This document shows, one piece after another, positions 8,145 to 62,250 of a stretch of 64,000 nt of DNA. The notes beneath the pieces are model-generated. The model was not told where the DNA came from and searched no databases. It saw only the letters and a program-made list of their open reading frames with translations. Positions within the stretch are counted from its first letter, which is position 1, and each line of letters begins with the position of its first letter. The stretch comes from Alphaproteobacteria bacterium. Lineage in GTDB: Bacteria > Pseudomonadota > Alphaproteobacteria > Rhodobacterales > Rhodobacteraceae. Made by a program: the position numbers and the translations under genes. Location: the NCBI GenBank assembly GCA_030427405.1, contig JAUHXK010000001.1, forward strand, positions 62,001-126,000, written 5' to 3'.

Positions 8145-8719
8145 CCCGCCTGCATCTGGTGCGACACGGCCCCACCCATGCCAAGACCATGGTCGGTTGG
8201 TCCGATCTGCCGGCAGATCTCAGCGACCTTGACGTGCTGGCAAGATTGCAGGCTTACCTGCCGTCATCCGCCCTGCTCGTGTCATCCGACCTGACGCGGG
8301 CGGTGGACACCGCCACGGCAATCCAGGCCAACCGCCAACGCCTGCCGCATCACCCGGACCTGCGCGAAATTCATTTCGGGCAGTGGGAGCTAAAATCCTT
8401 TGCCCAGATCGAGGCCGAAGACCCGGAACGCGCCTTTGCCTATTGGGACACCCCCGGAGATGTTCGCCCCCCCGGCGGCGAAAGCTGGAACCAGGTGCGC
8501 GGCCGGGTCGATGCCGCAATTGACCTGCTGATAGCGAACCATCCTGGCGCCGATATCATAGTTGTCGCCCATTTCGGCGCAATCCTGACTCAGCTGCAGC
8601 GTGCCCTGTCCCTGGACGCCCAACAGACATTTGCGCACCGCATCGACAACCTTTCGGTTTCCGAAATCGCCTTTGAGAAAGGCACTTGGACCGTAGGGCG
8701 GATAAATCACTGCCCGTGA
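8141..8719 (+). CDS. Histidine phosphatase, probable alpha-ribazole phosphatase (CobC-like)
   Basis: Branch of the phosphoglycerate-mutase superfamily, 192 residues. The catalytic RHG motif is at the N-terminus (LHLVRHGPTHA) and the second histidine is in VVAHFGAILTQL. Directly after cobU, with a GTGA overlap at 8141-8144, the most likely job is removal of the phosphate from alpha-ribazole-5'-phosphate (or adenosylcobalamin phosphate) in nucleotide-loop assembly. I start at GTG 8141 because the longer open frame from 7961 lies inside cobU. The family alone would not fix the substrate; the context does most of the work. Confidence 0.8.
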   Translation: MTRLHLVRHGPTHAKTMVGWSDLPADLSDLDVLARLQAYLPSSALLVSSDLTRAVDTATAIQANRQRLPHHPDLREIHFGQWELKSFAQIEAEDPERAFAYWDTPGDVRPPGGESWNQVRGRVDAAIDLLIANHPGADIIVVAHFGAILTQLQRALSLDAQQTFAHRIDNLSVSEIAFEKGTWTVGRINHCP

Positions 8720-14706: not shown

Positions 14707-17485
14707 TCTACCGGCGCCGATCCAGGCGCCAAGCGGCGCGCTGATCTGCGAGGCCTCTGAAATCTTTGACAGTGCCGGGATCAATTCCCGACTGTCTGAC
14801 GCCTTCGAAAATTGCAAGGACGCCGCGGCCATTCGCGGCGAAACTGTGCGTATCCTGCGCGACGCGCAAAAAGCCGGGCGCGCGGCAATCGCGTCTGCTT
14901 TTGCGGCCAAGCCGTTCGATGCCCGGCCCCTGACGCGTTCCTACACCTACCTGACTGACGGGTTGGTATGCACGGCGATGCAGGTGGCCAGCCAGTATAT
15001 CCATCCACTGGCAACCCCGACCCAGGGCGAGAAAATAGCGGTTATGGCGGTTGGCGGTTATGGCCGTGGTGAAATGGCACCGGCATCGGATGTCGATCTG
15101 CTGTTCCTGACCCCGTACAAGATCACGGCCTGGGCCGAGAGCGTGATTGAATCCATGCTCTATATTCTCTGGGATCTGCGCCTGAAGGTCGGCCATTCCT
15201 CGCGCACCATCCGCGACTGTCTGCGTTTGGGAACCGAGGATTTCACGATTCGCACCGCCATGCTCGAGCAGCGCTTTCTGGCCGGTGACAGCGCTCTTGC
15301 GGCCGAGTTGGAAACCCGGTTGAAGGCCGATCTTTTCAAGGGCAGCGAGCGTCAATTCATCGAGGCCAAGCTGAATGAGCGCGACGAGCGTCACCAGAAA
15401 CAGGGTGAGCGCTATATGGTCGAGCCCAACGTAAAAGAAGGCAAAGGCGGGCTTAGGGACCTGCAGTCGCTGTATTGGATCGCCAAATATGTCTATGGCG
15501 TGCAGGACGTTGCCGAACTTGTTCCCCTGGGCCTGTTCACACCCGAAGAGTTCCAGACTTTTGTTCAGGCCGAAGATTTCCTGTGGGCCGTGCGCTCGCA
15601 TCTGCACCTTGTGACCGGCCGGGCGACGGAACAGCTGACCTTTGACCTGCAGGTCGAAGTCGCGGACCGCATGGGGTACAAGGACCGCGCCGGCCGCCGG
15701 GCCGTTGAGATCTTCATGCAACGCTATTTCCGGGAAGCGACCCGCGTCGGAGAGCTGACCCGGATATTCCTGACCAAGCTGGAAGCCCTGCACATGAAGA
15801 ACGCGCCCCTGCTGGAGCGTATTTTCCGCAGGCGCCCCAGGATGAAGCCCGGCTACAGCGTGGTGCACGGACGCCTGGACGTGGCCGACCCGGACAAGTT
15901 CCTGGCGGACAAGGTCAACATGTTGCGTCTGTTCGAAGAAGGATTGCGCACGGGGATGTTGATACATCCCGACGCGATGCGCCTGGTCACGGCCAACCTG
16001 AACCTGATCGATGAGGATATGCGCAACAACAAAGAGGCCCAGCGTATTTTCCTGGACCTCATGCTGAAACACGGCAACCCCGAACGCGGCCTGCGTCGGA
16101 TGAACGAGCTTGGCGTGCTGTCTGCATTTGTCCCGGAATTCGAACACATCGTGGCGATGATGCAGTTCAACATGTATCACAGCTATACGGTGGACGAGCA
16201 CACGATCCAATGCATCGTGAACCTTGCTCAGATCGAGCGCGGAGAATTGATCGAAGAGCTTCCGCTGGCGTCTTCGATTTTGGAACGCGGCGTCAATCGG
16301 CGCGTTCTTTACGTGGCGCTTCTGGTGCATGACATCGCCAAGGGACGCCCCGAGGACCACTCGATCCTCGGCGCGCAAATGGCGCGGAAGATCGCGCCGA
16401 GACTGGGGCTGAACAAGTCGGAATCCGAAACCGTGGAATGGCTTGTGCGGTATCACCTGCTGATGTCGGACATGGCCCAGAAACGCGACATCTCGGACCC
16501 CCGTACAGTGCGCGACTTTGCCAAGGCGGTGAAAACCGTCAAGCGGCTGGACCTTTTGACCGTTCTGACCGTGTGCGACATTCGGGGCGTGGGCCCGAAT
16601 ACGTGGAACAACTGGAAAGCCACCCTGTTGCGGGCGCTTTACGCCGAAACCAAAAGTGCCCTGGAAACCGGGATGGAAGACCTGAACCGCGCCAATCGCG
16701 GTGCCGAGGCAAAGAAGGCCCTGCGCGCCGCTTTGCAAAGCTGGAACAAGGCCGACCTCAAGACCGAGACCGGCCGGCACTATGGCCCGTATTGGCAAGG
16801 TCTGAACCTGTCCACCCATGTCGAATTTGCCGAAATGCTGCGCGAACTTGAAAGCAGCGGAGATGCAGGTGCGATGGAGATCCGCCTGCACCCGGACGAG
16901 GATCGCGACGCCACACGGGCGTGTTTCGCCATGGCCGACCATCCTGGGATCTTTGCCCGAATTGCGGGGGCGCTGGCGCTTGTCGGCGCAAATGTCGTGG
17001 ATGCGCGCAGCTATACGACCAAAGACGGGTTCGTCACCGATGCCTTCTGGATACAGGACGCCGAAGGGCACCCGTTCGAGGCAAGCCGCCTGCCGCGGCT
17101 AACCCAGATGATCCAGAAAACGCTCAAGGGGGAAGTCGTCGCCGGAGAAGCCCTGAAATCGCGCGACAAGATCAAAAAGCGCGAACGGGCGTTCGACGTG
17201 CCGACCCATGTCACCTTTGATAATGACGGCTCTGAAATCTACACGATCATCGAGGTGGACACCCGAGACCGCCCCGGGCTACTTTATGATCTGACACGGT
17301 CCCTGGCCAGCGCAAACGTTTACATCGCCAATGCGGTGATCGCGACCTATGGCGAACAGGTCGTGGACACGTTCTATGTCAAGGACATGTTCGGGCTGAA
17401 ATACCATTCGGAAAACAAGCAGCGCGGTCTTGAGGCGAAACTGCGCAAGGCCATTGTCGAAGGTGCGGAGCGCGCGGCCTCATGA
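14666..17485 (+). CDS. glnD: [Protein-PII] uridylyltransferase / uridylyl-removing enzyme
   Basis: Nitrogen sensor that uridylylates PII proteins when glutamine is low and removes the UMP when it is high. The 939-residue chain shows the nucleotidyltransferase motif GGYGRGEMAPASDVDLLFL near residue 130, the HD hydrolase motif VHDIAKGRPEDHS near 554, and two C-terminal ACT domains (about 740-810 and 855-930, with DRPGLLYDLTRSLA in the second). No ATG fits the N-terminus; TTG 14666, preceded by AGGTGG with a 6-base spacer, is the best start and makes the gene overlap the lipoprotein gene by 41 bases. It overlaps murJ by ATGA. Confidence 0.95.
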   Translation: MTLPHKASLAPVSDLPAPIQAPSGALICEASEIFDSAGINSRLSDAFENCKDAAAIRGETVRILRDAQKAGRAAIASAFAAKPFDARPLTRSYTYLTDGLVCTAMQVASQYIHPLATPTQGEKIAVMAVGGYGRGEMAPASDVDLLFLTPYKITAWAESVIESMLYILWDLRLKVGHSSRTIRDCLRLGTEDFTIRTAMLEQRFLAGDSALAAELETRLKADLFKGSERQFIEAKLNERDERHQKQGERYMVEPNVKEGKGGLRDLQSLYWIAKYVYGVQDVAELVPLGLFTPEEFQTFVQAEDFLWAVRSHLHLVTGRATEQLTFDLQVEVADRMGYKDRAGRRAVEIFMQRYFREATRVGELTRIFLTKLEALHMKNAPLLERIFRRRPRMKPGYSVVHGRLDVADPDKFLADKVNMLRLFEEGLRTGMLIHPDAMRLVTANLNLIDEDMRNNKEAQRIFLDLMLKHGNPERGLRRMNELGVLSAFVPEFEHIVAMMQFNMYHSYTVDEHTIQCIVNLAQIERGELIEELPLASSILERGVNRRVLYVALLVHDIAKGRPEDHSILGAQMARKIAPRLGLNKSESETVEWLVRYHLLMSDMAQKRDISDPRTVRDFAKAVKTVKRLDLLTVLTVCDIRGVGPNTWNNWKATLLRALYAETKSALETGMEDLNRANRGAEAKKALRAALQSWNKADLKTETGRHYGPYWQGLNLSTHVEFAEMLRELESSGDAGAMEIRLHPDEDRDATRACFAMADHPGIFARIAGALALVGANVVDARSYTTKDGFVTDAFWIQDAEGHPFEASRLPRLTQMIQKTLKGEVVAGEALKSRDKIKKRERAFDVPTHVTFDNDGSEIYTIIEVDTRDRPGLLYDLTRSLASANVYIANAVIATYGEQVVDTFYVKDMFGLKYHSENKQRGLEAKLRKAIVEGAERAAS

Positions 17486-37908: not shown

Positions 37909-39297
37909 TTATGACCCAGCAGTCGCAGAATTTTCCTTTGCAGGCGCGGCAAAAGCGGTCGTGCCATCCAGACAAGTCGACGCGGCATAGTAGTTCAGCA
38001 GGTCGATCCGGCGCCCCGATGGCCTGACAACCCCATCTTCACGACACAGGATTCGCCGCTCGAGCAGTTGGTCAAGCGCGCTGGTAACCTGGGCTTCGGT
38101 GGGCGTGTCCTGCGTGCTGCGGCGCTGAAGTAATCCGGTAACGGTTGCAACCAGCGCGTCCTGGCCAATCTCCTGCTGTTCTCGGACCACCCAACATATG
38201 GCGGGGGCTGGAACCAAAGGGATCGCCCGGTCGATCCGCTGCATCAGCTCGCGGGCCAGGCCCGTCATCAGGTCCGACCTGTCGGTACCGCGAAACGCTT
38301 GCAGGGAAATCGGCATGCCGTACCGGACCGAGGCCACGCCGAACCGGGCATACCGACCGATCAACCTGCGCCAGACCTGCTTGAGCGTCCAGCGGGTGAT
38401 CACGCCGATACGGGCGCGAAACCGACGCTCTGGCCCCGAAGCGGCGGCGGTAAGGATCGTATCCTCCAACACCCTGTCATAGTTCAGCCCCACCGGAACA
38501 AAGACGACGTCGCGCCCATTATCCGATGTCCCATCGATTATGTATTTCAATAACCCCAGCTTGGGCCGCCCCAATGCGCCGGTCAGGCTCAGCCCGCCCT
38601 CGGGGAACATCGCCTGCGTTACCCCCGCCTCGGTGGCCAAACGGACATAGCTGGCAAGGACCTGGCGATACAGCTCGCTGCCTGACTTGCGGCGAATGAA
38701 ATATGCCCCCATCGCCCGAATCAATCGGCTAAGCGGCCAGACCTGCGCCCATTCGCCAACCGCATAGGACAGTGCGGAATGACGGGCCGCCAGGTATGTG
38801 ATCAGAACATAATCCATGTTGCTGCGGTGGTTCATCACGAACACAACCGTCGCATCGGGGTCCAGGTCCTTTAGCGCCTGTTCGTTTTCATAGCTAAGGC
38901 GCACGTCATAAAAAGCGTTGCTGAGCATGCGCGCGGCACGGATCGCAAAGCTGAAATAGGTGAAGGCTGAAAAGGACGGAACAATTTCGCGGGCATAACG
39001 CCGCGCCGTTTCAAAGGCGACGGCTTCGGGAATATTCAATTCATGCGCATGGGCCTGCGCTGCGCGCGCGACCTGCGGGTCATAGATAAGCCGTTGGATC
39101 ATATCGTGGCGTCGCGCCAGCTTGAAAGGTTGGATGGGCCGCTGCAGCCGCTGGTTCAGCCGAGCCACCGCCTTTTCCAGGCGACGCCGAAAAAACCAGC
39201 GTACCGACGGAAACAGAAAATGCGACGCGAAAGTGACCGCAGCGAACACCACGATCAGCACGAACAGCCAAAGCGGAAGTTCCACAGTCTGCGTCAT
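37909..39297 (-). CDS. PlsB-like glycerol-3-phosphate/1-acylglycerol acyltransferase
   Basis: A 462-residue membrane-associated acyltransferase for phospholipid synthesis. Residues 8-30 form an N-terminal membrane anchor. The catalytic HX4D motif is H157-D162 in NHRSNMDYV, block II is around YFIRRKSGSELY, block III is MFPEGGLSL, and block IV is VFVPVGLNYDRV; the set matches the PlsB family. It is roughly half the length of E. coli PlsB, as in other alphaproteobacterial forms. It lies between ccr and ecm and is divergent from ecm. Confidence 0.88.
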   Translation of the reverse strand: MTQTVELPLWLFVLIVVFAAVTFASHFLFPSVRWFFRRRLEKAVARLNQRLQRPIQPFKLARRHDMIQRLIYDPQVARAAQAHAHELNIPEAVAFETARRYAREIVPSFSAFTYFSFAIRAARMLSNAFYDVRLSYENEQALKDLDPDATVVFVMNHRSNMDYVLITYLAARHSALSYAVGEWAQVWPLSRLIRAMGAYFIRRKSGSELYRQVLASYVRLATEAGVTQAMFPEGGLSLTGALGRPKLGLLKYIIDGTSDNGRDVVFVPVGLNYDRVLEDTILTAAASGPERRFRARIGVITRWTLKQVWRRLIGRYARFGVASVRYGMPISLQAFRGTDRSDLMTGLARELMQRIDRAIPLVPAPAICWVVREQQEIGQDALVATVTGLLQRRSTQDTPTEAQVTSALDQLLERRILCREDGVVRPSGRRIDLLNYYAASTCLDGTTAFAAPAKENSATAGS

Positions 39298-44101: not shown

Positions 44102-44881
44102 CTATACGGTACGGTCGATCATCATCTTCTTGATTTCCGCGATTGCCTTGGCCGGGTTCAAACCCTTGGGGCAGGTCTTGGCGCAGTTCATGATCGTGTG
44201 GCAGCGATACAGTTTGAAGGGGTCTTCAAGCTGATCCAGCCGTTCGCCGGTGGCCTCGTCGCGGCTGTCGATGATCCAGCGATAAGCATGCAAAAGGGCC
44301 GCCGGGCCAAGATACTTGTCGCTATTCCACCAATAGCTGGGGCACGAGGTCGAACAGCTGGCGCACATGACGCATTCGTACAGTCCGTCCAGCTTTTTGC
44401 GATCTTCGATGGATTGCTTCCATTCCTTTGCCGGGCGGTTGGTCTTGGTTTCCAGCCACGGCATGATGCTGGCGTGCTGGGCATAGAAATGGGTCAGATC
44501 CGGGATCAGGTCCTTGACCACTTCCATGTGCGGCAGCGGGTAGATCTTCACGTCGCCCTTGATTTCATCCATGCCGTAGATGCAGGCCAGCGTGTTGATC
44601 CCGTCGATATTCATCGCACAGGATCCGCAAATACCCTCACGGCAGGACCGGCGGAAGGTCAGGGTCGCATCGACCTTGTTCTTGATGTAGATCAGCGCAT
44701 CCAAGACCATCGGGCCGCAATCGTCCATATCGACGAAATACGTATCGACCCTGGGGTTTTGCCCGTCATCCGGGTTCCAGCGATAGATCTTGAACTTGCG
44801 GACATTGCTGGCGCCTTCGGGCTTGGGCCATGTCTTGCCGGTGGTGATACGCGAGTTCTTGGGGAGGGTCAGTTGTACCAT
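44102..44881 (-). CDS. sdhB: Succinate dehydrogenase iron-sulfur subunit
   Basis: Electron-transfer subunit of complex II, 259 residues, linking the SdhA flavin to the membrane quinone site through three clusters. The [2Fe-2S] ligands are C80, C85, C88 and C100 (CREGICGSC region). The [4Fe-4S] and [3Fe-4S] ligands lie in [16 protein letters not shown] and [17 protein letters not shown]. It is the last gene of sdhCDAB, starting 11 bases after sdhA, with a terminator hairpin just downstream. Confidence 0.98.
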
Positions 44882-44892
44882 GGTTCCTCTCC

Positions 44893-46701
44893 TTAGAATG
44901 TGCGCGCTTTGGGCGCGATTTTCTTCAGGCTGATGCCACCTTCGTCTTCGGTCGTCAGCGGATCTGCAATGACCGGGCGATAGCTGAGGTCAACCGCATT
45001 GCCGTCGACACGCGACACCGTATGAACGCGCCATTTCTCGTCATCGCGTTCTGCGAAATCTTCGTGCGCATGGGCACCACGAGATTCCTTGCGCGCCTCG
45101 GCGCTGACGATGGTGGCGAGCGCGCTGGGCATCAGGTTGGTCAGTTCAAGCGATTCCATCAGGTCGCTGTTCCAGACCAGGGACCGGTCCGTGACCTGCA
45201 GGTCGTCCATCTTGGCCGCGATGGCCGTCATCTTGTCGACGCCTTCGGCCATGGTCTTGGCGGTCCGGAAAACGGCCGCATCTGCCTGCATTGTCTTTTG
45301 CATCTCAAGCCGCAAATCGGCCGTTGGAATTGCGCCGCTGGCGTTGCGCACCGCGTCAAAGCGATCAAAGGCCTTGTCAACGGATGCCTGGTTCAGAACC
45401 GGGTTCGGAGCTTCTGAGTCGACGACCTTGCCCGCCCGGATCGCGGCCGCGCGGCCAAAGACCACAAGGTCGATCAACGAGTTCGACCCAAGGCGGTTGG
45501 CCCCGTGGACCGAGGCGCAACCGGCCTCGCCCACCGCCATCAAGCCAGGCACGACAGCTGTCGGATCGGCCTCGGTCGGATTGAGAACTTCGCCCCAGTA
45601 GTTCGTCGGGATACCGCCCATATTGTAATGCACGGTCGGCAGAACCGGGATCGGTTCCTTGGTGACATCCACACCTGCGAAAATCTTGGCCGACTCGGAA
45701 ATGCCGGGCAGCCGCTCTGCCAGCGCCTCGGCAGGCAAATGGCTGAGGTTCAGGTGGATATGATCCCCATCTTTACCAACACCGCGACCTTCGCGGATTT
45801 CCATGGTCATGGATCGCGAAACATAGTCGCGCGGGGCGAGGTCCTTGTACTGGGGCGCATAACGCTCCATGAACCGCTCGCCTTCAGAGTTGGTCAGGTA
45901 ACCGCCTTCTCCGCGCGCGCCTTCGGTAATCAGGCAGCCCGAGCCGTAGATGCCGGTGGGGTGGAACTGAACGAATTCCATGTCCTGCAGGGCCAGACCC
46001 GCGCGGGCAACCATACCGCCACCGTCGCCGGTGCAGGTATGCGCCGAGGTCGCGCTGAAATAGGCACGTCCATAACCGCCGGTGGCCAGAACAACCATCT
46101 TGGCGTTGAAGACATGCATCGTGCCATCGTCCAGCTTCCAGCAGACAACACCCTGACACTGCCCATCCTCGGACATGATCAGGTCGATGGCAAAGTATTC
46201 GATATAGAATTCGGCGTTGTTTTTCAGCGACTGTCCATACAGGGTGTGCAGGATCGCGTGACCGGTCCGGTCAGCAGCGGCACAGGTCCGCTGAACGGCG
46301 GGGCCTTCACCGAACTCGGTGGTGTGGCCGCCGAACGGGCGCTGATAGATCTTGCCCTCTTCGGTGCGGCTGAACGGCACACCGTAATGTTCCAGCTCAT
46401 AGACGGCTTTGGGCGCTTCGCGCGCCAGGTATTCCATCGCGTCTGTGTCACCCAGCCAGTCCGACCCTTTTACGGTGTCGTACATGTGCCATTGCCAATG
46501 GTCGGGACCCATGTTCGACAGGGATGCAGCGATACCCCCCTGCGCCGCAACCGTGTGCGAGCGCGTCGGGAACACCTTGGTCACACAGGCCGTGCGAAGT
46601 CCCTGTTCGGCCATGCCCAGCGTGGCGCGCAGACCGGCACCACCGGCGCCGACAACGACCACGTCATATTCATGCGTTTCATATTCGTATGCTGCTGTCA
46701 T
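44893..46701 (-). CDS. sdhA: Succinate dehydrogenase flavoprotein subunit
   Basis: Catalytic subunit of complex II, 602 residues, oxidising succinate to fumarate with covalently bound FAD. The dinucleotide motif [15 protein letters not shown] is at 15-29, and H49 in [13 protein letters not shown] is the FAD attachment histidine. Substrate-site segments such as [23 protein letters not shown] (part), [10 protein letters not shown] and [10 protein letters not shown] are present. It follows sdhD by 24 bases. Confidence 0.98.
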
Positions 46702-46725
46702 CGTTCTTGTTCCTTACCGCACGAA

Positions 46726-47097
46726 TTACAGGGCGAGCTTGACGAGGGCGAAAAGCCCGGCGGCAATCAACGTGTACGAAAAGGCCGCGACACCCATCAG
46801 CGCCAGCTTTTCGGCAACGCCGTGGACATAGTCCTCGATTGCCATCTGCGCTTCTCGCATCAGGTGTTTTACGACCACGACAAGGGTCAGTGCCGTCACG
46901 ATGGCGGGAAACGGACGGCTGTAATAGGCCAGAACGTCTTCGTAGGTGCCGCCCAGCGCGCACCCGAAGGTGAAGACGAACAAAGGCACAAGAATGACAA
47001 GAGCGGTAGAGCTGACCATCATCTCCCAGTGGTGATGAGTGCCCTGACGGCCGGCACCAGTCCCTTGCGCGCGTTTACGGTCGGTGAGGTATTGCAT
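46726..47097 (-). CDS. sdhD: Succinate dehydrogenase membrane anchor subunit
   Basis: A 123-residue anchor with three membrane helices that, with SdhC, holds heme b and the ubiquinone site. The segments VVSSTALVILVPLFVFTFG, PAIVTALTLVVVVKHLMREA and LALMGVAAFSYTLIAAGLFAL are hydrophobic; the histidine in VVVKHLMREAQMAIEDYVHG fits the heme-ligand helix. Of two in-frame ATGs (47103 and 47097) the second is chosen, because AAGGA lies 8 bases before it and only 2 before the first. It lies 11 bases after sdhC. Confidence 0.93.
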   Translation of the reverse strand: MQYLTDRKRAQGTGAGRQGTHHHWEMMVSSTALVILVPLFVFTFGCALGGTYEDVLAYYSRPFPAIVTALTLVVVVKHLMREAQMAIEDYVHGVAEKLALMGVAAFSYTLIAAGLFALVKLAL

Positions 47098-47108
47098 GGC
47101 CATATTCC

Positions 47109-47492
47109 TTATACCACCAAAGCTGTGATGATCGTCAGGACGGTTGCCAGAACGAACATACCGATACCCAGTTTCTCGGCGACCGAGACGTCCAGGCAGT
47201 AACCCAGGTCCCAGATGACGTGACGCAACCGCCCAAGCATGTGGTAAAAGATGGCCCAGGTTGCGCCGAACATGACAAGATCACCCAGCCAGCTTCTGAT
47301 CAGCGTGTCGATAAAGGCAAACGCGCTTTCCGACGTTGCGGCGGCCAGCAGCCACCATACGACAAGCGCAGACAGGATCAGCGCCGCAATTCCCGTGATC
47401 CGAACCATGATCGACGACGCGGACGTCATTTGCGGTCGGTAGATCGTCAAGTGTGGCGATAGCGGGCGGTTTCCCCGTTTTACATCGGCCAT
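47109..47492 (-). CDS. sdhC: Succinate dehydrogenase cytochrome b556 subunit
   Basis: A 127-residue membrane subunit of complex II. The opening RPLSPHLTIYRPQMTSASSI is the hallmark of SdhC, followed by three membrane helices, and the heme-ligand region is FYHMLGRLRHVIWDLGY. ATG 47492, preceded by AAAGGAGCC, is used instead of the open frame to 47585. This first gene of sdhCDAB has two GTGATCAC palindromes 115-143 bases upstream, as has sucC. Confidence 0.95.
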   Translation of the reverse strand: MADVKRGNRPLSPHLTIYRPQMTSASSIMVRITGIAALILSALVVWWLLAAATSESAFAFIDTLIRSWLGDLVMFGATWAIFYHMLGRLRHVIWDLGYCLDVSVAEKLGIGMFVLATVLTIITALVV

Positions 47493-47606
47493 GGCGGCTC
47501 CTTTGCGGTTGGCTACCGAAGGTTTTACTGTTTTTTGCGATCCTGTCACGCGCTGCAGGTGCAAAAAAGGGCCAAATTGCCGCAAAACCGCGGATAAAGC
47601 CCTTTT

Positions 47607-47635
47607 GTGATCACGAGAAATAATGCTGTGATCAC
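47607..47635 (-). promoter_or_regulatory. Tandem GTGATCAC operators upstream of sdhCDAB
   Basis: GTGATCAC palindromes at 47607-47614 and 47628-47635, centres 21 bp apart (two helical turns), with flanking TTTT and AAA extending each toward TTTGTGATCACAAA. The same pair with identical spacing precedes sucC. Confidence 0.7.
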
Positions 47636-47707: not shown

Positions 47708-48373
47708 TCATCTGACCTCTGCGGTCTGCTGTGTCACCTCACGCAGCAGCTTTCGACGGATTTTCTCGGGGTAGTCCTCGAACCCCGAGGCCGAGACGAC
47801 GAATGCACCCTCACCCACGATCACGTTTTCAAAGAAATAGGCGGTCAGTTCGGGCTCGCTTTCCTCAATCGCAATCGCGTTCACGGTTATGCCGCGGCTT
47901 CGCAGCGCGCCAAGCACCCGGGATGGTTCGATCCCTTCGTTGGATACGCCGTCACCGGACAGGTCGATCAGGTGGCGCGCGCATGGGGATACGGCATCAA
48001 AGCTGGCCATCGTCGTCTCAAGCGCCTCACCGATCGCGGTCGAGAAATTGCGCCAGGCCCGCGGCGTGGTTGCGATCTGATCGGCAAAGCGGTCAAGCTT
48101 GGCGAAACTGTCCACCTGCGTCCACGGAATGGACACCGCCTGGCGCGAAGACCCGGTCCATTGGACCAGCAAAAGCATGGCCTGCCCGCGTACCAGCGCC
48201 TCAGAAACAACCGGATCGCGCAGACCCGCCGCGAGGCCGTCCATCTGAATCCTGTACTCGCTGCCATCGACCGACCCTGACACATCCACCGCCAAGGCCA
48301 AGGCAAGATCGCAGGCACCGGCAGGCTGTGCCATGCAAAAGGCGGCGGCGACAAAGTTGCAGACCCGGTTCAT
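47708..48373 (-). CDS. DUF1194 (von Willebrand A-like) secreted protein
   Basis: A 221-residue exported protein with a signal peptide of about 20 residues (cleavage near PAGA) and a VWA-like fold of the DUF1194 family. The metal-ion-dependent adhesion site is D30-x-S32-x-S34 in LAVDVSGSVD, and a second part is HLIDLSGDGVSNEG. Such domains bind protein ligands through a divalent cation; the partner is not known. It lies upstream of sdhC on the same strand, 215 bases away, and downstream of the mch operon. Confidence 0.85.
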   Translation of the reverse strand: MNRVCNFVAAAFCMAQPAGACDLALALAVDVSGSVDGSEYRIQMDGLAAGLRDPVVSEALVRGQAMLLLVQWTGSSRQAVSIPWTQVDSFAKLDRFADQIATTPRAWRNFSTAIGEALETTMASFDAVSPCARHLIDLSGDGVSNEGIEPSRVLGALRSRGITVNAIAIEESEPELTAYFFENVIVGEGAFVVSASGFEDYPEKIRRKLLREVTQQTAEVR

Positions 48374-48452: not shown

Positions 48453-49481
48453 TCAGGTCGGCATCAGCGCCCAATAATCGAGATCCAGCAGAACGTCGGG
48501 ATTGTACCGGCCCTCGGCCGTGCGCAGATCGAAGGCCGCGCCACCTTTCGTTGCCACCAGCCGCAGACGCAGAGCACCTACACCGGGCACGCCCGTCTCC
48601 GCCTTGTCCAGCACCTCGGACCAGGCCTTGATCGTGTCACCCGCAAAACAGGGATTGGCATGCGCGCCGCCATTCAAGCCGACAATCATCTGTGCGTTGG
48701 CCAATCCGTTGAAAGAAAGCGCCCGCGCCATCGAGATAACATGGCCCCCATAAATCAGACGGCCATCGGGCCGGAATGTCAGGTCAAAATGAACCTTGGC
48801 CGTATTCTGCCACAGACGCGTGGCCAGCATATGCTCGGCCTCTTCCACCGTCACGCCATCGACGTGATCAATGGTTTCGCCGATCTCGTAATCACCCCAG
48901 CGATGCGCCTCGCCCGCCAGCGCGAAATCGTAGCCCGAAAAATCCAAACCTTCGGGGATCACCAGATCACCCGGCGCCAACACTGTCTTCAGATCGGGCA
49001 CGACGGATTCAGGGGCCGATGCACCAAGGTCCGATTTCCGCACCATCACCCAGCGTACATATTCGATCACCACCTCGTCGCGCTGATTCAAGCCGCGGGT
49101 GCGGACCCAGACCACACCTGTCTTGCCGTTCGAATTCTGCTTGAGACCGATCACCTCGGACTCGGCCCGCAGGGTGTCGCCAGGGTAAACCGGCATCAGC
49201 CAGCGGCCCTCGGCATATCCCAGGTTGGCCACCGCATTCAGCGAGATATCGGGAACGGTCTTGCCGAAGACGACGTGAAACGCCGCCAGATCGTCGAGCG
49301 GGCTTTTCGGCAAGCCGCAATTCCGGGCAAATTCGTCCGAGGAGTACAGAGCGTGGCGCGCAGGATAAAGCGCGTGGTACAAAGCGCGTTCGCCATCTGT
49401 CACCGTGCGCGGCACCGCGTGGTGCAGTATCTGCCCGATGGAATAATCCTCGAAAAATCGGCCCGGATTGGTTTTTGCCAT
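48453..49481 (-). CDS. mch: Mesaconyl-CoA hydratase
   Basis: MaoC/hotdog-fold hydratase of the ethylmalonyl-CoA pathway converting mesaconyl-C1-CoA to beta-methylmalyl-CoA. The 342-residue length and two hotdog halves fit Mch; the start MAKTNPGRFFEDYSIGQILH and the segments RNCGLPKSPLDDLAAFHVVFG (part) and HFDLTFRPDGRLIYGGHVIS are characteristic. Its ATG shares one base with the stop of the DUF1737 gene (TAATG), so the two are coupled. It is the distal gene of mcl2-nnrU-DUF1737-mch, which strongly supports the assignment. Confidence 0.95.
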   Translation of the reverse strand: MAKTNPGRFFEDYSIGQILHHAVPRTVTDGERALYHALYPARHALYSSDEFARNCGLPKSPLDDLAAFHVVFGKTVPDISLNAVANLGYAEGRWLMPVYPGDTLRAESEVIGLKQNSNGKTGVVWVRTRGLNQRDEVVIEYVRWVMVRKSDLGASAPESVVPDLKTVLAPGDLVIPEGLDFSGYDFALAGEAHRWGDYEIGETIDHVDGVTVEEAEHMLATRLWQNTAKVHFDLTFRPDGRLIYGGHVISMARALSFNGLANAQMIVGLNGGAHANPCFAGDTIKAWSEVLDKAETGVPGVGALRLRLVATKGGAAFDLRTAEGRYNPDVLLDLDYWALMPT

Positions 49482-53637: not shown

Positions 53638-53666
53638 GTGATCACACCCCAAAAACCTGTGATCAC
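53638..53666 (+). promoter_or_regulatory. Tandem GTGATCAC operators upstream of the sucC operon
   Basis: GTGATCAC palindromes at 53638-53645 and 53659-53666, with outer TTT and AAA flanks, centres 21 bp apart, ending 109 bases before the sucC ATG. Same sequence, spacing and distance as the pair before sdhC. The rest of the 305-base mdh-sucC gap holds the mdh terminator and AT-rich sequence but no ORF. Confidence 0.7.
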
Positions 53667-53775
53667 AAAAACCGAAAATCTTCGGTAAAAACCTCTGTCA
53701 CGTCAAAAAACCCTTTAAACTTGCCCCTTAGACACCCCTATAACGGTTCAATCGTAGTCAGACGGGACAGTTTCG

Positions 53776-54969
<1,194 letters not shown>

Positions 54970-55029: not shown

Positions 55030-55059
55030 ATGCCGAACCGATGGAAGCAATCGACCTAA
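55030..55059 (+). other. Possible 9-codon leader ORF coupled to the glycosyltransferase gene
   Basis: The only good ribosome-binding site in this gap (AGGAGA, 55016-55021) is 8 bases before ATG 55030, which opens MPNRWKQST and stops at TAA 55057-55059. That stop shares a base with ATG 55059 (TAATG), the likely glycosyltransferase start. This suggests re-initiation after a tiny leader; it may also be coincidence. Confidence 0.35.
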
Positions 55060-55886
55060 TGTGCACCCCCATCTTCCTCATAGGCCTCGAACGCGCCGCC
55101 GGACGGGCGCGATTGATGGAGCAGGAGCTGCAAATGGCAGGCCTGGCGGCGACGCGCGTCAATGCTGTCGATTGTGCTACCGCTACCCGTGAGGATTTTC
55201 TGCGTGAGTGCAAGGCAGAAGGGCCATGGGGCCACTTCCACACAAAAGATATGGCTTGCACCCTCAGCCACGCAAAAGCGTGGGAGGCGGTGATTGCTTC
55301 TGGCGTCAAGCATGCTTTGATCCTTGAAGACGATGTATTCCTGACCCCGGAACTCGCCAATTGGCTGAACGACCCGTCTTGGTGGCCAAAGGATGCGGAC
55401 ATCGTCCGGTTTGAGCGCTGGCGTAGCAGCAAGCTTTATGTGGCGCTCGGGCGGAAACGCCAGTCCCACCTGGGGCGCGAGATCCGGCTGATGAAGTCAC
55501 GACATCCCGGTGGCGCGGCCTATGCCCTGACCCGCAAGGCGGCACAGCACTTTCTAGCACAGAAACCGTTTGACATCACGCTGGATGGCCTTCTGTTCAA
55601 CCCGTCGGCGTCGGCCGCCGCGCGTCAGATCAACATCTATCAGGTTGTTCCGGCCATGGTCGAACAGGGCAACGAAGCGCCCGGAGAAAAAAATATGGGC
55701 TCACCTCGCCGCCGCCCCAAAGGTTGGTCCCTACTGCGCCAGAAGATACGGCGCGGCATTGCCGAGATCGACGGCGGGGCCCGCACCATCGCCAACCTGG
55801 CGCTTGGACGCGCCACGCTCGAAAAAATTACTTACGCGCCGCAGGTTCTGCCGGACGCACAACCCAATCAAACCAGCACCGCCTAA
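55059..55886 (+). CDS. Family 25 glycosyltransferase (LPS biosynthesis type)
   Basis: A 275-residue protein of the GT25 family, whose bacterial members add galactose or similar sugars to lipo-oligosaccharide. The opening [20 protein letters not shown], the motif [17 protein letters not shown] and the metal-binding DDV in [15 protein letters not shown] are diagnostic; [18 protein letters not shown] follows. A start at ATG 55041 would add six residues; 55059 is preferred because family members begin just before the first strand. It is placed between sucC and sucD, with no LPS gene nearby, and its C-terminal tail from about residue 210 is basic and not conserved in type. Confidence 0.85.
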
Positions 55887-55899
55887 GGAAAGGGACAAA

Positions 55900-56781
55900 A
55901 TGGCAGTCCTCATCGACGAAAATACCAAAGTGATCTGTCAGGGCTTTACCGGCTCGCAGGGCACATTCCACTCTGAACAGGCCATCGCCTATGGCACCAA
56001 GATGGTCGGCGGTGTGACCCCCGGAAAAGGTGGGATGGCCCATCTCGACCTGCCCGTTTTCAACTCGGTCCACGAAGCCAAGCACGTGACCGAAGCCAAC
56101 GCCTCGGTGATCTATGTTCCGCCGCCCTTTGCGGCTGACTCGATTCTTGAGGCGATTGATGCCGAGATGGAAGTGATCGTCTGCATCACCGAAGGCATCC
56201 CGGTTCTGGACATGATGAAAGTGAAGCGCGCGTTGGAAGGTTCAAGCTCGCGCCTGATCGGCCCGAACTGCCCCGGTGTCATCACACCTGACGCCTGCAA
56301 GATCGGCATCATGCCCGGCCACATCCACAAGCGTGGTTCGGTCGGCGTTGTGTCGCGTTCGGGCACCCTGACTTATGAGGCAGTCAAACAGACCACCGAT
56401 GTGGGCCTGGGTCAGTCGACCTGCGTGGGCATCGGCGGCGACCCGATCAAAGGCACCGAGCATATCGACGTGCTGGAATGGTTCCTGGCCGATGACGAAA
56501 CCCACTCGATCATCATGATCGGTGAGATCGGTGGCTCGGCCGAGGAAGAAGCCGCGCAGTTCCTGGCGGATGAGGCCAAGAAAGGCCGCAAAAAGCCGAC
56601 CGCCGGTTTCATCGCAGGCCGCACAGCCCCTCCGGGCCGCCGCATGGGCCACGCGGGCGCGATTGTCGCCGGCGGCAAAGGCGGCGCCGAGGACAAGATC
56701 GAAGCCATGCGCTCGGCCGGTATCGTCGTGGCCGAAAGCCCGGCGCAGCTGGGCGAAGCCGTGCTGGAAGCGATTGGGTAA
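55900..56781 (+). CDS. sucD: Succinate-CoA ligase, alpha subunit
   Basis: CoA-binding and catalytic subunit of succinyl-CoA synthetase, 293 residues. Segments: [65 protein letters not shown], and the phosphohistidine in [14 protein letters not shown]. The ATG follows AAGGAAAGGGAC, so the 110-codon extension of the open frame into the glycosyltransferase gene is rejected. The next gene starts directly after the stop. Confidence 0.98.
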
Positions 56782-57232: not shown

Positions 57233-57772
57233 ATGACCTTCTCCGACGCCATCCGCACTTGTTTCTCCAAGTTCTTCACCTTCTCGGGTCGTGCCTCACG
57301 CCCCGAATACTGGTTCTTTTTCCTGTTCATCGTGATCTGGAACATCATCGCCGGGATCATCGACTGGCAGTTTTTTACTCAGGTTGCAGTGACAGAAACC
57401 GAAACGTCCAAATCCGTCACCGCCACCTCAACAGGGCCGGTGCAAAGCATCGTCAGTCTGATCGTCTTTTTCCCGCATCTGGCCGTCGCGTGGCGACGGA
57501 TGCATGATACCGGGCGCAGCGGGCTTTATGCCTTGTTGCCGATCCTTTTGATCCTAGGCGCGCTGGCGGTTCTGGTCTTTGGCATCGGCCTGGCCAGCCA
57601 GTTCCACGGCGGCAGGTTGGATACTCTGCTGACCGAGGCCACTTTGCTCATCGTCATTCCGACACTCATCGTCCTGTTTGTGTCGCCCCTTCTGGTGCTG
57701 TGGTGGCTGGCCCGCCCCAGCGAACCAGGCACCAACCAATACGGTCCCAACCCATATGAGGTAGTCCCATGA
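57233..57772 (+). CDS. DUF805 membrane protein
   Basis: A 179-residue inner-membrane protein with about four hydrophobic helices. The family signature FFTFSGRASRPEYWFFFLF is near the N-terminus, and AVAWRRMHDTGRSGLYALLP is the second DUF805 motif. Function unknown. ATG 57233 is used; TTG 57224 is closer to the AAGGGGGTG site and would add three residues. It starts 10 bases after the secreted protein gene and overlaps sucA by ATGA (57769-57772). Confidence 0.88.
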   Translation: MTFSDAIRTCFSKFFTFSGRASRPEYWFFFLFIVIWNIIAGIIDWQFFTQVAVTETETSKSVTATSTGPVQSIVSLIVFFPHLAVAWRRMHDTGRSGLYALLPILLILGALAVLVFGIGLASQFHGGRLDTLLTEATLLIVIPTLIVLFVSPLLVLWWLARPSEPGTNQYGPNPYEVVP

Positions 57773-60726
57773 CCGAACAAACGCCCAACACCGCTTTTCA
57801 CGCCTCGAGCTTCATGCAGGGGCACAATGCTGAATACCTTGAGCAGCTCTACGCTCAGTACACCAAGAACCCCGGTGCGGTCGATGCGGCCTGGGCCGAG
57901 TTCTTTCGGCAACTGGGGGACGCGACCCCCGATGTTCAGAAAGAAGCCGAGGGGCCGTCCTGGGCGCGGACTGATTGGCCACCGGCCCCCAATGATGACC
58001 TGACCGGGGCGTTGACCGGGCAATGGGCGGAAACCGATGCCAAGGCTGCGGGCAAAAAGATCAAGGACAAGGCAGCGGCAACCGGGGTCGAAGTCAGTGA
58101 CGAGCAGATCAAGCGCGCCGTTCTGGATTCGATCCGCGCCCTGATGCTGATCCGCGCCTACCGCATTCGGGGTCACCTGGTGGCCGATCTTGACCCGCTG
58201 GGCATGCGTGCCGTCACGCCGCACCCCGAGCTTGACCCCAAGACATATGGCTTCACCGATGCCGACATGGACCGGCCGATCTTTATCGACAACGTGCTGG
58301 GCCTGCAGATGGCCAGCATGCGCCAGATCGTCGAGATCGTGAAACGGACCTATTGCGGCACCTTTGCGCTGCAATACATGCATATCTCGAACCCGGAAGA
58401 GGCCGCGTGGCTGAAAGAACGGATCGAAGGGTACGGCAAGGAAATCGCCTTTACCAAGGAAGGCCGCAAGGCGATCCTGAACAAGATGGTCGAGGCGGAA
58501 GGGTTCGAAAAGTTCCTGCACGTCAAATACATGGGCACCAAGCGCTTTGGTCTCGACGGTGGCGAGGCGCTGATCCCGGCGATGGAACAGATCATCAAAC
58601 GCGGCGGCGCCCTGGGTCTGAGCGATATCGTCATCGGCATGCCGCACCGCGGCCGTTTGAACATCCTGGCCAATGTGATGGGCAAGCCCTATCGCGCCAT
58701 CTTCAACGAATTCCAGGGCGGCAGCTTCAAACCCGAAGACGTGGATGGTTCGGGTGACGTGAAATATCACCTCGGTGCCTCCAGCGACCGTGAGTTTGAC
58801 GGCAACAGCGTACACCTGTCGCTGACCGCGAACCCCTCACACCTTGAGGCGGTGAACCCGGTGGTTCTGGGCAAGGTTCGTGCCAAGCAGGATCAGCTGA
58901 ACGACACTGACCGCACCAAGGTCATGGGCATCCTGCTGCACGGTGATGCGGCCTTTGCCGGTCAGGGCGTCGTGGCCGAGGGCTTTGGCCTGAGCGGTCT
59001 TCGCGGACACAGGACCGGCGGTACCATGCATATCGTGGTGAACAACCAGATCGGCTTTACCACTGCGCCGCACTTCTCGCGCTCCAGCCCATATCCCACG
59101 GATATCGCGCTGATGGTCGAGGCACCGATCTTCCACGTGAATGGAGACGACCCCGAGGCCGTGGTTCACGCCGCCAAGGTGGCGACCGAATTCCGGCAGA
59201 AGTTCCACAAGGACGTGGTCATCGACATCTTCTGCTATCGCCGGTTCGGGCATAACGAGGGCGACGAGCCCATGTTCACCAACCCGATCATGTACAAGCG
59301 GATCAAGACGCATAAGACCACGCTGTCGCTGTATACCGAACGGCTGGTCAAGGACGGCCTGATCCCTGAAGGCGAAATCGAGGACATGAAAGCCGCCTTT
59401 CAGGCCCATCTGAACGATGAGTTCGAAGCCGGCAAGGACTACAAGCCCAACAAGGCCGACTGGCTGGACGGGCGCTGGTCGCACATGGACAAAAGCAATG
59501 AAGAATATGTGCGCGGCGAAACCGCTATCACGCCGGAAACCCTGGCTCAGGTCGGCGCGGCGCTGACGCATACACCGGACGGTCTTGCCATTCACAAGAC
59601 GGTCGGGCGTTTGCTGGACCACAAAAAGCAGATGTTCGAAACCGGAACCGGGTTCGACTGGGCAACCGGCGAGGCGCTGGCTTTTGGCTCTTTGCTGACC
59701 GAAGGCTACCCGGTTCGCCTGTCCGGGCAGGACGCAACCCGCGGCACGTTCAGCCAACGCCACTCGGGCTTGGTCCATCAGGAAACCGAGGAACGGTATT
59801 ACCCGCTCAACAACATTCGGGCCGGGCAAGCACAGTACGAAGTCATCGACTCGATGCTCAGCGAATACGCGGTGCTCGGGTTCGAATATGGCTACTCGCT
59901 GGCCGAACCCAACGCGCTGACCCTGTGGGAAGCGCAATTCGGCGATTTTGCCAATGGCGCGCAGATCATGTTCGACCAGTTCATCAGCTCGGGTGAATCG
60001 AAATGGTTGCGCATGTCCGGTCTGGTCACGCTGTTGCCGCACGGGTTCGAAGGGCAAGGCCCCGAACACTCGTCGGCGCGTCTGGAACGGTTCCTGCAGA
60101 TGTGCGGCCAGGACAACTGGATCGTGGCGAACTGTACGACGCCTGCGAACTATTTCCACATCCTGCGCCGTCAGCTGCACCGGACCTTCCGCAAACCGCT
60201 GATCCTGGTGACACCGAAATCGCTGCTGCGCCACAAGCTGGCGGTCAGCACGGCTGAGGAATTCACCACCGGGTCCAGTTTCCACCGGGTGTTGTGGGAT
60301 GACGCACAACAGGGCAATTCGGAAACCAAGCTGGTCAAGGATAACAAGATCAAGCGGGTCGTGATGTGCTCGGGCAAGGTCTATTATGACCTGCTGGAAG
60401 AGCGCGACGCGCGCGGCATCGATGACATCTACCTGCTGCGGATCGAACAATACTATCCGTTCCCGGCACATTCGTTGATCAACGAGCTTGAGCGCTTCAA
60501 AGGGGCCGAGTTCATCTGGTGCCAGGAAGAGCCCAAGAACCAAGGGGCCTGGACGTTTATCGAGCCCAATATCGAATGGGTCCTGACCCGCATCAAGGCA
60601 AAGCATACCAGGCCGCGTTACGTCGGCCGCGCAACCTCGGCCTCGCCCGCGACGGGTCTGGCCAGCCAACACAAAGCCCAACAAGAAGCGCTGGTCGACG
60701 AAGCGCTGAGCATTGAAGGAAAATAA
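57769..60726 (+). CDS. sucA: 2-oxoglutarate dehydrogenase E1 component
   Basis: Thiamine diphosphate-dependent E1 of the 2-oxoglutarate dehydrogenase complex, 985 residues. The N-terminal SSFMQGHNAEYLEQLYAQY is the E2-binding arm. GMPHRGRLNILANVMGKP, HLSLTANPSHLEAVNPVV and MHIVVNNQIGFTT belong to the TPP domain. SGQDATRGTFSQRHSGLVHQ and EAQFGDFANGAQIMFDQFIS are in the transketolase-like domain. It overlaps the DUF805 gene by 4 bases and sucB starts 3 bases after its stop. Confidence 0.98.
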   Translation: MTEQTPNTAFHASSFMQGHNAEYLEQLYAQYTKNPGAVDAAWAEFFRQLGDATPDVQKEAEGPSWARTDWPPAPNDDLTGALTGQWAETDAKAAGKKIKDKAAATGVEVSDEQIKRAVLDSIRALMLIRAYRIRGHLVADLDPLGMRAVTPHPELDPKTYGFTDADMDRPIFIDNVLGLQMASMRQIVEIVKRTYCGTFALQYMHISNPEEAAWLKERIEGYGKEIAFTKEGRKAILNKMVEAEGFEKFLHVKYMGTKRFGLDGGEALIPAMEQIIKRGGALGLSDIVIGMPHRGRLNILANVMGKPYRAIFNEFQGGSFKPEDVDGSGDVKYHLGASSDREFDGNSVHLSLTANPSHLEAVNPVVLGKVRAKQDQLNDTDRTKVMGILLHGDAAFAGQGVVAEGFGLSGLRGHRTGGTMHIVVNNQIGFTTAPHFSRSSPYPTDIALMVEAPIFHVNGDDPEAVVHAAKVATEFRQKFHKDVVIDIFCYRRFGHNEGDEPMFTNPIMYKRIKTHKTTLSLYTERLVKDGLIPEGEIEDMKAAFQAHLNDEFEAGKDYKPNKADWLDGRWSHMDKSNEEYVRGETAITPETLAQVGAALTHTPDGLAIHKTVGRLLDHKKQMFETGTGFDWATGEALAFGSLLTEGYPVRLSGQDATRGTFSQRHSGLVHQETEERYYPLNNIRAGQAQYEVIDSMLSEYAVLGFEYGYSLAEPNALTLWEAQFGDFANGAQIMFDQFISSGESKWLRMSGLVTLLPHGFEGQGPEHSSARLERFLQMCGQDNWIVANCTTPANYFHILRRQLHRTFRKPLILVTPKSLLRHKLAVSTAEEFTTGSSFHRVLWDDAQQGNSETKLVKDNKIKRVVMCSGKVYYDLLEERDARGIDDIYLLRIEQYYPFPAHSLINELERFKGAEFIWCQEEPKNQGAWTFIEPNIEWVLTRIKAKHTRPRYVGRATSASPATGLASQHKAQQEALVDEALSIEGK

Positions 60727-60729
60727 TCG

Positions 60730-62250
60730 ATGTCCATTGAAGTTCGTGTTCCCACGCTTGGCGAGTCGGTAACCGAAGCCACGGTTGCGACATGGTTCAA
60801 GAAACCCGGCGACGCCGTCGCGGTTGATGAGATGCTGTGTGAACTGGAGACCGACAAGGTCACGGTCGAAGTCCCCTCGCCCGCTGCTGGCGTTCTGGGC
60901 GAAATCGTAGCCGCCGAAGGTGAAACCGTCGGCGTCGACGCGCTGTTGGCCACCATCGCAGCCGGGGAAGGTGCCGCACCGGCCCCAGCCGCTGCGTCCG
61001 CACCAGCGGCCGAGGCCGCCCCGGCCGCATCCGGTGGCAGCGTCGATGTCATGGTCCCGACGCTGGGTGAATCCGTGACCGAGGCAACCGTTTCGACCTG
61101 GTTCAAGCAGGTTGGTGACGCTGTCGCGCAGGACGAAATGCTGTGCGAGTTGGAAACCGACAAGGTTTCGGTCGAGGTTCCTGCCCCAGCAGCGGGCGTT
61201 CTGGCCGAAATCGCAGCCCCCGAGGGCAGCACGGTTGACGCATCGGCCAAGCTGGCGGTGATCTCGGGCGCGGCGGCTGGCGCTGCTGCGGCTCCAGCAG
61301 CGGCGACAGCGACAGCGGCGGCTCCGGCCCCGGCGGCGGCATCGGGCAAGGACGTGGCAAATGCCCCGTCAGCCGAGAAAGCAATGGCCGAAGCTGGCCT
61401 GTCGGCAGATCAGGTCACCGGCACAGGTCGCGATGGTCGGATCATGAAAGAAGACGTGGCAAAGGCGATCGCGACTGCGGCGGCTCCGGCACCGGCTGCA
61501 GCGCCTGCACCAGCCGCCGCGCCGCGTGCGCCCGTCGCCGCCGAGGACGCATCGCGCGAAGAGCGCGTGCGTATGACCCGTCTGCGCCAGACCATCGCCA
61601 AGCGCCTGAAGGATGCGCAGAACACCGCCGCGATCCTGACCACCTATAACGAGGTGGACATGACAGAGGTGATGGCCCTGCGCAACCAGTACAAGGACCA
61701 GTTCGAGAAGAAGCACGGCGTGCGCCTGGGCTTTATGTCCTTCTTCACCAAGGCCTGCTGTCATGCGCTGAAAGAAGTACCCGAAGTCAACGCCGAGATC
61801 GACGGCACCGACATCGTCTACAAGAACTTCGTTCATATGGGCGTCGCCGCCGGTACGCCCCAGGGTCTGGTGGTTCCCGTCATCCGCGACGCCGACAGCA
61901 TGTCCTTCGCCGATATCGAGAAAGCCATCGCCGAAAAGGGCAAGCGCGCCCGCGACGGCAAGCTGAGCATGGCCGAGATGCAGGGCGGTACGTTCACCAT
62001 CTCGAATGGCGGCGTCTATGGATCGCTGATGTCTTCGCCAATTCTGAACCCGCCGCAATCGGGTATCCTGGGCATGCATAAGATCCAGGACCGCCCGATG
62101 GTCATCAACGGCGAGATCAAGATCCGCCCGATGATGTATCTGGCCCTGTCCTATGACCACCGGATCGTTGACGGCAAAGGCGCCGTAACCTTCCTTGTCC
62201 GTGTGAAAGAGGCGCTGGAAGATCCCCGCCGTCTGCTGATGGATCTGTAA
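60730..62250 (+). CDS. sucB: 2-oxoglutarate dehydrogenase E2 (dihydrolipoyl succinyltransferase) with two lipoyl domains
   Basis: Core acyltransferase of the complex, 506 residues instead of about 400. Two nearly identical lipoyl domains lie at 1-77 and 104-180, with lipoyl-lysines K43 and K145, each in LCELETDKV, joined by Ala/Pro linkers. A peripheral subunit-binding domain follows ([20 protein letters not shown], about 215-250), then the catalytic domain from about 280 with the active-site [12 protein letters not shown]. Most E2o proteins have a single lipoyl domain. It is in operon with sucA and lpd. Confidence 0.97.

Follow-up and report, generated by a model that had tools for sequence, protein, structure and literature searches.

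Introduction

The described system closest to the sites presented here is that of AkgR of Rhodobacter sphaeroides, which shares with them the GTGATCAC motif, suc and sdh targets and a regulator of the GntR plus FCD type. In the accessible text of PMC6365646, GTGATCAC is found among the AkgR binding sites and AkgR is termed a transcriptional activator; in that of PMC4344238, the GntR-family protein RSP_0981 is predicted to regulate succinyl-CoA synthetase, succinate dehydrogenase and 2-oxoglutarate dehydrogenase, its predicted targets being RSP_0967-6, RSP_0974-6 and RSP_0965-62. The accessible parts of PMC11323563, PMC4419725, PMC7471390, PMC5507952 and PMC8557541 do no more than cite AkgR, and it does not appear among the regulators shown in the accessible part of PMC5343134. 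A further likeness is found in the related Cereibacter johrii, where the akgR ortholog adjoins sdhB; in the source genome of the DNA analysed here, by contrast, akgR lies on another contig than sdh and suc. We take RSP_0981 to be AkgR, an assignment that the location of the C. johrii ortholog fits. The defining account of AkgR is reportedly that of Imam et al. 2015 (mBio e02461-14), whose motif is known here second-hand.

Several related regulators offer partial parallels. Sites of the FadR type usually carry GT and AC 2–3 nt apart, many have weak extra half-sites 7–12 nt from the centre, and full paired palindromes are not described in the accessible part of the source (PMC4494728). In GTGATCAC the two dinucleotides are 4 nt apart, outside the FadR/FCD rule, and the site is therefore atypical, which leaves the assignment of the protein unaffected. 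NanR of Escherichia coli places several dimers on the neighbouring sites of (GGTATA)3; binding of three NanR dimers is cooperative and becomes weaker with longer spacers, but NanR represses, its repeats are GGTATA and its co-operativity requires a 32-residue N-terminal extension (PMC8012715, accessible part), whereas the GntR domain of our candidate AkgR begins at residue 15. GTGATCAC has also been proposed as the site of PS417_07240, a GntR-like protein of a deoxyribonate cluster that is 32% identical to AkgR, although it belongs to Pseudomonas, governs other genes and has one palindrome mentioned in the accessible text (PMC6365646).

Regulator and motif are already known, and the pair described below is a widespread instance of them. 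What is added here is the fixed 21-bp pair, the phasing of promoters, the triple arrays and the autoregulatory box, with priority subject to Imam et al. 2015, which lies outside the open literature in whose accessible text no description of the 21-bp pair was found.

Results

Paired palindromes upstream of sucC and sdhC

The window, by which we mean the whole 64-kb stretch of DNA analysed, contains a distal and a proximal copy of GTGATCAC at 53638–53645 and 53659–53666, 21 bp or two helical turns apart as the preliminary description had reported, and 109 bases separate the end of this pair from the ATG of sucC (succinate-CoA ligase beta subunit, 53776–54969, + strand), the first gene after it. 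The same form, GTGATCAC-N13-GTGATCAC, recurs at 47607–47635 (distal copy 47628–47635, proximal copy 47607–47614), 114 bases before the ATG of sdhC at 47492; the matching arrangement is thus where it was said to be, with the correction that sdhC is read on the − strand. TTT/AAA flanks had been described for the palindromes, and these are seen on the outer sides of each pair and not on the inner ones. Relative to the predicted transcription starts, the distal and proximal centres lie at about −109 and −88 for sucC and at about −117 and −96 for sdhC. Chance does not account for the two pairs, in line with the earlier argument that 64 kb should hold about one such 8-mer but not two like pairs: the window has 5 copies of GTGATCAC against 0.92 expected, a count that 0 of 100 shuffles reach, and 2 spaced pairs against 0.00 expected when spacers of 5–30 are admitted. 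Throughout the source genome (3.62 Mb, 20 contigs) these are the only exact pairs, and the reversed-pattern control gives 0. The fifth copy in the window, at 38396, is single, and the DNA around it looks coding-like by eye.

Both pairs precede genes of the TCA cycle. The gene sdhC (succinate dehydrogenase cytochrome b subunit, 47109–47492, − strand) is the first of sdhCDAB, with sdhD, sdhA and sdhB at 44102–47103 on the same strand, and sucC is followed in its own direction by a frame containing sucD (succinate-CoA ligase alpha subunit; 55570–56781, the limits of the frame rather than a mapped gene start) and by the 2-oxoglutarate dehydrogenase genes sucA and sucB (57769–62250). Between sucC and sucD sits a Glyco_transf_25 (glycosyltransferase family 25) gene at 55041–55886 (+), an odd guest in a TCA-cycle cluster. 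Upstream of sdhC are a DUF1194 gene (47708–48373, −) and a mesaconyl-CoA hydratase-like gene (48453–49481, −), the latter adjoining sdhC in C. johrii too.

Conservation and spacing of the pair

The proposal of the preliminary description depended on conservation of the pair in relatives, and conservation is what we find. Within an evenly drawn sample of 61 genomes of the family, source genome included, the exact 21-bp pair occurs in 49, and the reversed-pattern control gives 0 in all 61. The counts of the 61 genomes sum to 88 exact pairs, of which 84 distinct ones were read (the other four were unread or identical in sequence to one that was read); the next gene is sucC in 46 cases, sdhC in 37 and fumC (fumarase) in one, so that every pair read stands before a TCA-cycle gene. 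In 48 of the 60 genera sampled the pair is retained at sucC and sdhC, with spacers that differ in sequence. Among 80 loci returned by a scan of named genomes, 14 named relatives were tested, each of which has pairs with a spacing of 20 or 21 bp; in C. johrii the order of genes is ygjP-like, akgR, sdhB, sdhA, sdhD, sdhC, pair, mch, mdh, pair, sucC, sucA. In Rhodobacter calidifons and Pseudotabrizicola formosa, sucC is preceded by triple GTGATCAC arrays with 21+21 bp spacing (L291, boxes at 15610, 15631 and 15652; L292, boxes at 8319, 8340 and 8361). Shimia ponticola has an additional 20-bp pair (L296, 1044–1071) before a gene for a Vut_1-family transporter, a possible further target.

Across the class, the exact pair occurs in 5 of 289 genomes, namely in three of the four that belong to the same family and in two of the 285 outside it. 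One of the two outside pairs (L173, 992–1020, in another family) directly precedes a different GntR/FCD gene whose product is about 30% identical to AkgR, and the paired layout may for this reason be wider than AkgR alone. The other (L174) falls under a 282-residue frame and was taken as chance.

When all centre spacings from 8 to 52 bp were surveyed in the same 61 family genomes, 88 pairs were found at 21 bp, 5 at 20 bp, all of them at sucC or sdhC, and 12 at every other spacing together (two spaced by 18 bp, the remaining 10 by 22 to 52 bp). Eight of these 12 lie in frames of recognised unrelated proteins according to Pfam; for three more (L267, L270 and L271) no Pfam family was found, with one frame tried for each. 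In the twelfth, L264 (G042, 1501–1539), two boxes stand 31 bp, or three turns, apart with A/T-rich DNA between them, and some 250 bases further on lies a gene whose product, by eye, resembles an outer-membrane protein. None of the 84 pairs read at 21 bp lies inside a gene. The concern that the spaced pair might be found as often within genes is therefore answered by 0 of 84 at the observed spacing, and the small number of pairs with other spacings are mostly intragenic. A long reading frame alone was dropped as a criterion for chance pairs in favour of Pfam, because long chance frames also cover L258 and L259, which are among the five genuine 20-bp pairs.

Predicted promoters mostly keep their position relative to the pair

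Comparison of upstream regions predicts a promoter beyond each pair, at a position kept in most relatives. For sucC it would occupy 53713–53744 (+), with a weak −35 element CTTTAAA at 53713–53719 and a −10 element TATAAC at 53739–53744; for sdhC it would occupy 47522–47549 (−), with a −35-like GTGACA at 47549–47544 and a −10 element TAAAAC at 47527–47522. Transcription is predicted to start about 85 bases past the pair at sucC and about 92 bases past it at sdhC. In 36 sdhC upstream regions (of 37, L019 being left out for a run of N), the motif search returned CGTGACA-N16-TAt.aA with a score of 398.7, against 107.8 for one shuffle. GTGAC starts 57–60 bases past the pair in 27 of the 36 regions and at 36, 47, 68 and 68 bases in four, while five have no GTGAC match past the pair; the distance from pair to ATG is more variable, at 98–170. 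The top motif in 46 full sucC regions is the flank of the pair rather than a promoter (310.0 against 114.9), and a second search was made with the first 25 and last 12 bases removed. It returned a TTTA- or TTTG-like −35 element with a conserved stretch about 18 bases further on (276.9, against 96–105 in five shuffles), located 39–41 bases past the pair in 34 of the 46 regions, 30 bases past it in 5 and elsewhere in 7.

Several outliers are displaced by whole helical turns. A protein that occupies one face of the helix would be predicted to tolerate displacements in steps of about 10.5 bp; the test for such steps, made on the sdhC outliers, gives a modest result (P 0.013, or 0.032 with the two at 68 counted as a single event). 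A/T-rich stretches lie in the middle of the spacer and 10–13 bases beyond the pair, and might mark bent DNA. In 11 of 46 sucC promoters the proximal box continues directly into AAATGTC, often as AAATGTCGGATTTT, which might represent an additional site or bent DNA; the source genome has no AAATGTC at this place (53667–53680). A block like GCGCCAAAAAACCGCG is present up to 56 bases after the pair in 11 of 37 sdhC promoters and in 0 of 46 sucC promoters.

A candidate AkgR and its co-occurrence with the pair

The source genome, which has 16 FCD matches, encodes a GntR/FCD protein of 215 aa at G000:C2:83852, preceded by a GTGATCAC box 8 nt before its ATG, within a TTTGTGATCACATG element at G000:C2:83833-83846 that ends 5 bases before the ATG. 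Both of its domains score over the cut-off (N-terminal GntR helix-turn-helix, PF00392, 54.4 bits; C-terminal FCD, PF07729, 59.9 bits), and the protein is 74% identical to the product of the gene adjoining sdhB in C. johrii, the reference being C. johrii and not R. sphaeroides. We know of no TCA-cycle role for McbR of E. coli, which has another regulon. Its structure (PDB 4p9f) is the closest solved one by sequence (E 9.1e-19).

Orthologs of this candidate, defined by 48% identity or more, occur in 51 of the 61 family genomes; two genomes (G019 and G054) have only a paralog of 35–40% identity, and eight further genomes have no match at the cut-off used. Exact pair and ortholog are both present in 48 genomes and both absent from 9, with the ortholog alone in three and the pair alone in one (G019). 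The three with the ortholog alone carry variant pairs before sucC, spaced by 20 bp in G009 and G055 and with one mismatch in G040, and with variants included the pair is found in all 51 genomes with the ortholog and in one of the 10 without it. The Fisher P values, 1.2e-7 for exact pairs and 5.8e-10 with variants, overstate independence, because the co-occurrence partly follows phylogeny: on a weak SucC tree the label needs four changes (4–5 by bootstrap), of which well-supported branches force only one. Eight of the nine genomes lacking both were read upstream of sucC and have no pair there (G021, whose best hit is 51% identical to SucC, was left out of this reading), and one of them, G017, has a lone GCGATCAC in this region. 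As to G019 (L160), where a pair precedes sucC and the ortholog was not found, the genome is 91% complete and fragmented, and the exception may reflect an incomplete assembly or a replaced regulator.

A search of the source genome for single boxes with up to 3 mismatches gave 78 matches against 27 in the reversed control and was too noisy to define a regulon; of the sites inspected (L033, L039 and L041) only L033, before the GntR gene, is convincing.

A single box in front of akgR

Among the best 30 of the 51 akgR orthologs, 24 loci have a box 8–10 nt before the likely start codon (GTGATCAC in 23 and GCGATCAC in one); the other six have none. By eye, TTGAC stands some 35 nt ahead of that codon in 23 of the 24 boxed loci, and the remaining one (L077) has TTGAT. 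In C. johrii TTGAC is present before akgR and the box is absent. Given a TTGAC at −35 from the ATG, the arrangement suggests that the akgR message is leaderless, with a predicted start at or near the ATG, and that the box covers the −10 region, which would amount to putative self-repression. In the source genome this TTGAC includes the stop codon of the upstream gene, and the stop codon alone could conserve part of it.

Discussion

The analyses presented here lead us to propose, with a probability of roughly 0.82, that the paired palindromes are predicted binding sites of AkgR, a GntR-family activator with an FCD domain that acts on TCA-cycle operons in Rhodobacteraceae; the pair itself is real and very probably has a function. 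AkgR, one of two regulators that the preliminary description had offered for comparison, emerges as the best-supported candidate through the motif passage, the target genes, the box before its own gene and the co-occurrence of its ortholog, and there is good support for a single regulator that co-ordinates the sdh and suc operons.

We suggest that two AkgR dimers would sit on one face of the helix and would probably co-operate in binding. Centred about 88–96 and 109–117 bp upstream of where transcription is predicted to start, they would help RNA polymerase at promoters with a poor −35 element (GTGACA at sdhC, a TTTAA-like sequence at sucC). Since the promoter elements tend to keep the helix turn relative to the pair, contact with polymerase is likely, for example via the alpha C-terminal domain. 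The signal molecule is expected, from the type of protein, to be a TCA-cycle-linked carboxylic acid. At akgR itself the single box over the likely −10 region would give a negative feedback loop. The dimer of dimers proposed earlier would fit the 20–21-bp spacing and the 21+21-bp triple arrays, which support it indirectly. A more specific version, in which two and sometimes three AkgR dimers are stacked in a 21-bp ladder and touch polymerase whole turns away, and in which a single box shuts the leaderless akgR promoter, is put forward tentatively, at slightly less than even odds.

Most characterised GntR proteins are repressors, and the single akgR box overlaps the likely −10 region, a repressing position; AkgR might by the same token bind the pair as a repressor of sdh and suc that is released by a TCA metabolite. 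We regard this as improbable, since in most genomes about 47–60 bp separate the boxes at sdhC and sucC from the conserved −35 element downstream, the −35 elements there are poor, and AkgR is termed a transcriptional activator in the accessible text of PMC6365646. The chance that some other protein binds the pair and AkgR merely shares its motif is slimmer still, whether this were another GntR/FCD regulator, for instance the paralog at G000:C7:146377 (38% identical), or a protein of unrelated type. The 16 FCD matches of the source genome, the link of a Pseudomonas GntR-like protein to the same palindrome (PMC6365646, accessible part) and the 21-bp pair before a GntR/FCD gene of another family (L173) all lend it something, but the two genomes that have only the paralog differ, one having the pair and one not, and AkgR is favoured both by the akgR box and by the closeness of the C. 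johrii gene to sdh.

Control of central carbon metabolism by CceR, CRP or an FNR-type protein is a very remote prospect as the source of the pair. The published CceR motif, [AGT]GTT-N6-8-AAC[ACT], has no match upstream of sdhC or sucC, and neither have, at up to 2 mismatches, the CRP motif TGTGA-N6-TCACA and the FNR motif TTGAT-N4-ATCAA. With their motifs absent from both upstream regions, all three were rejected as binders, CceR, the other regulator named in the preliminary description, among them. In favour of CceR, the accessible text of PMC4344238 gives sdh and mdh as predicted targets of RSP_1663 in R. sphaeroides; we presume that RSP_1663 is CceR. Against CRP, according to the same text a CRP analogue is not predicted for R. 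sphaeroides. Finally, although single GTGATCAC copies do arise by chance, a chance or structural repeat devoid of regulatory role has a negligible probability and is refuted by conservation, the pair being kept at the same two genes in most genera while the spacers change.

The AkgR reading offers a precise, testable site through which succinate dehydrogenase would be tied to succinyl-CoA synthetase and 2-oxoglutarate dehydrogenase. If the 21-bp ladder is true, promoters could slide by one turn but not by half a turn, and a GntR/FCD protein would serve as an upstream, helix-phased activator, unlike the usual repressor; this geometry, with its ladder and its one-turn promoter shifts, is open to simple spacing mutants. 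Rhodobacteraceae, a family with marine and purple bacteria, consume a major share of marine organic carbon, and the AkgR circuit is indicated across most of the family sampled.
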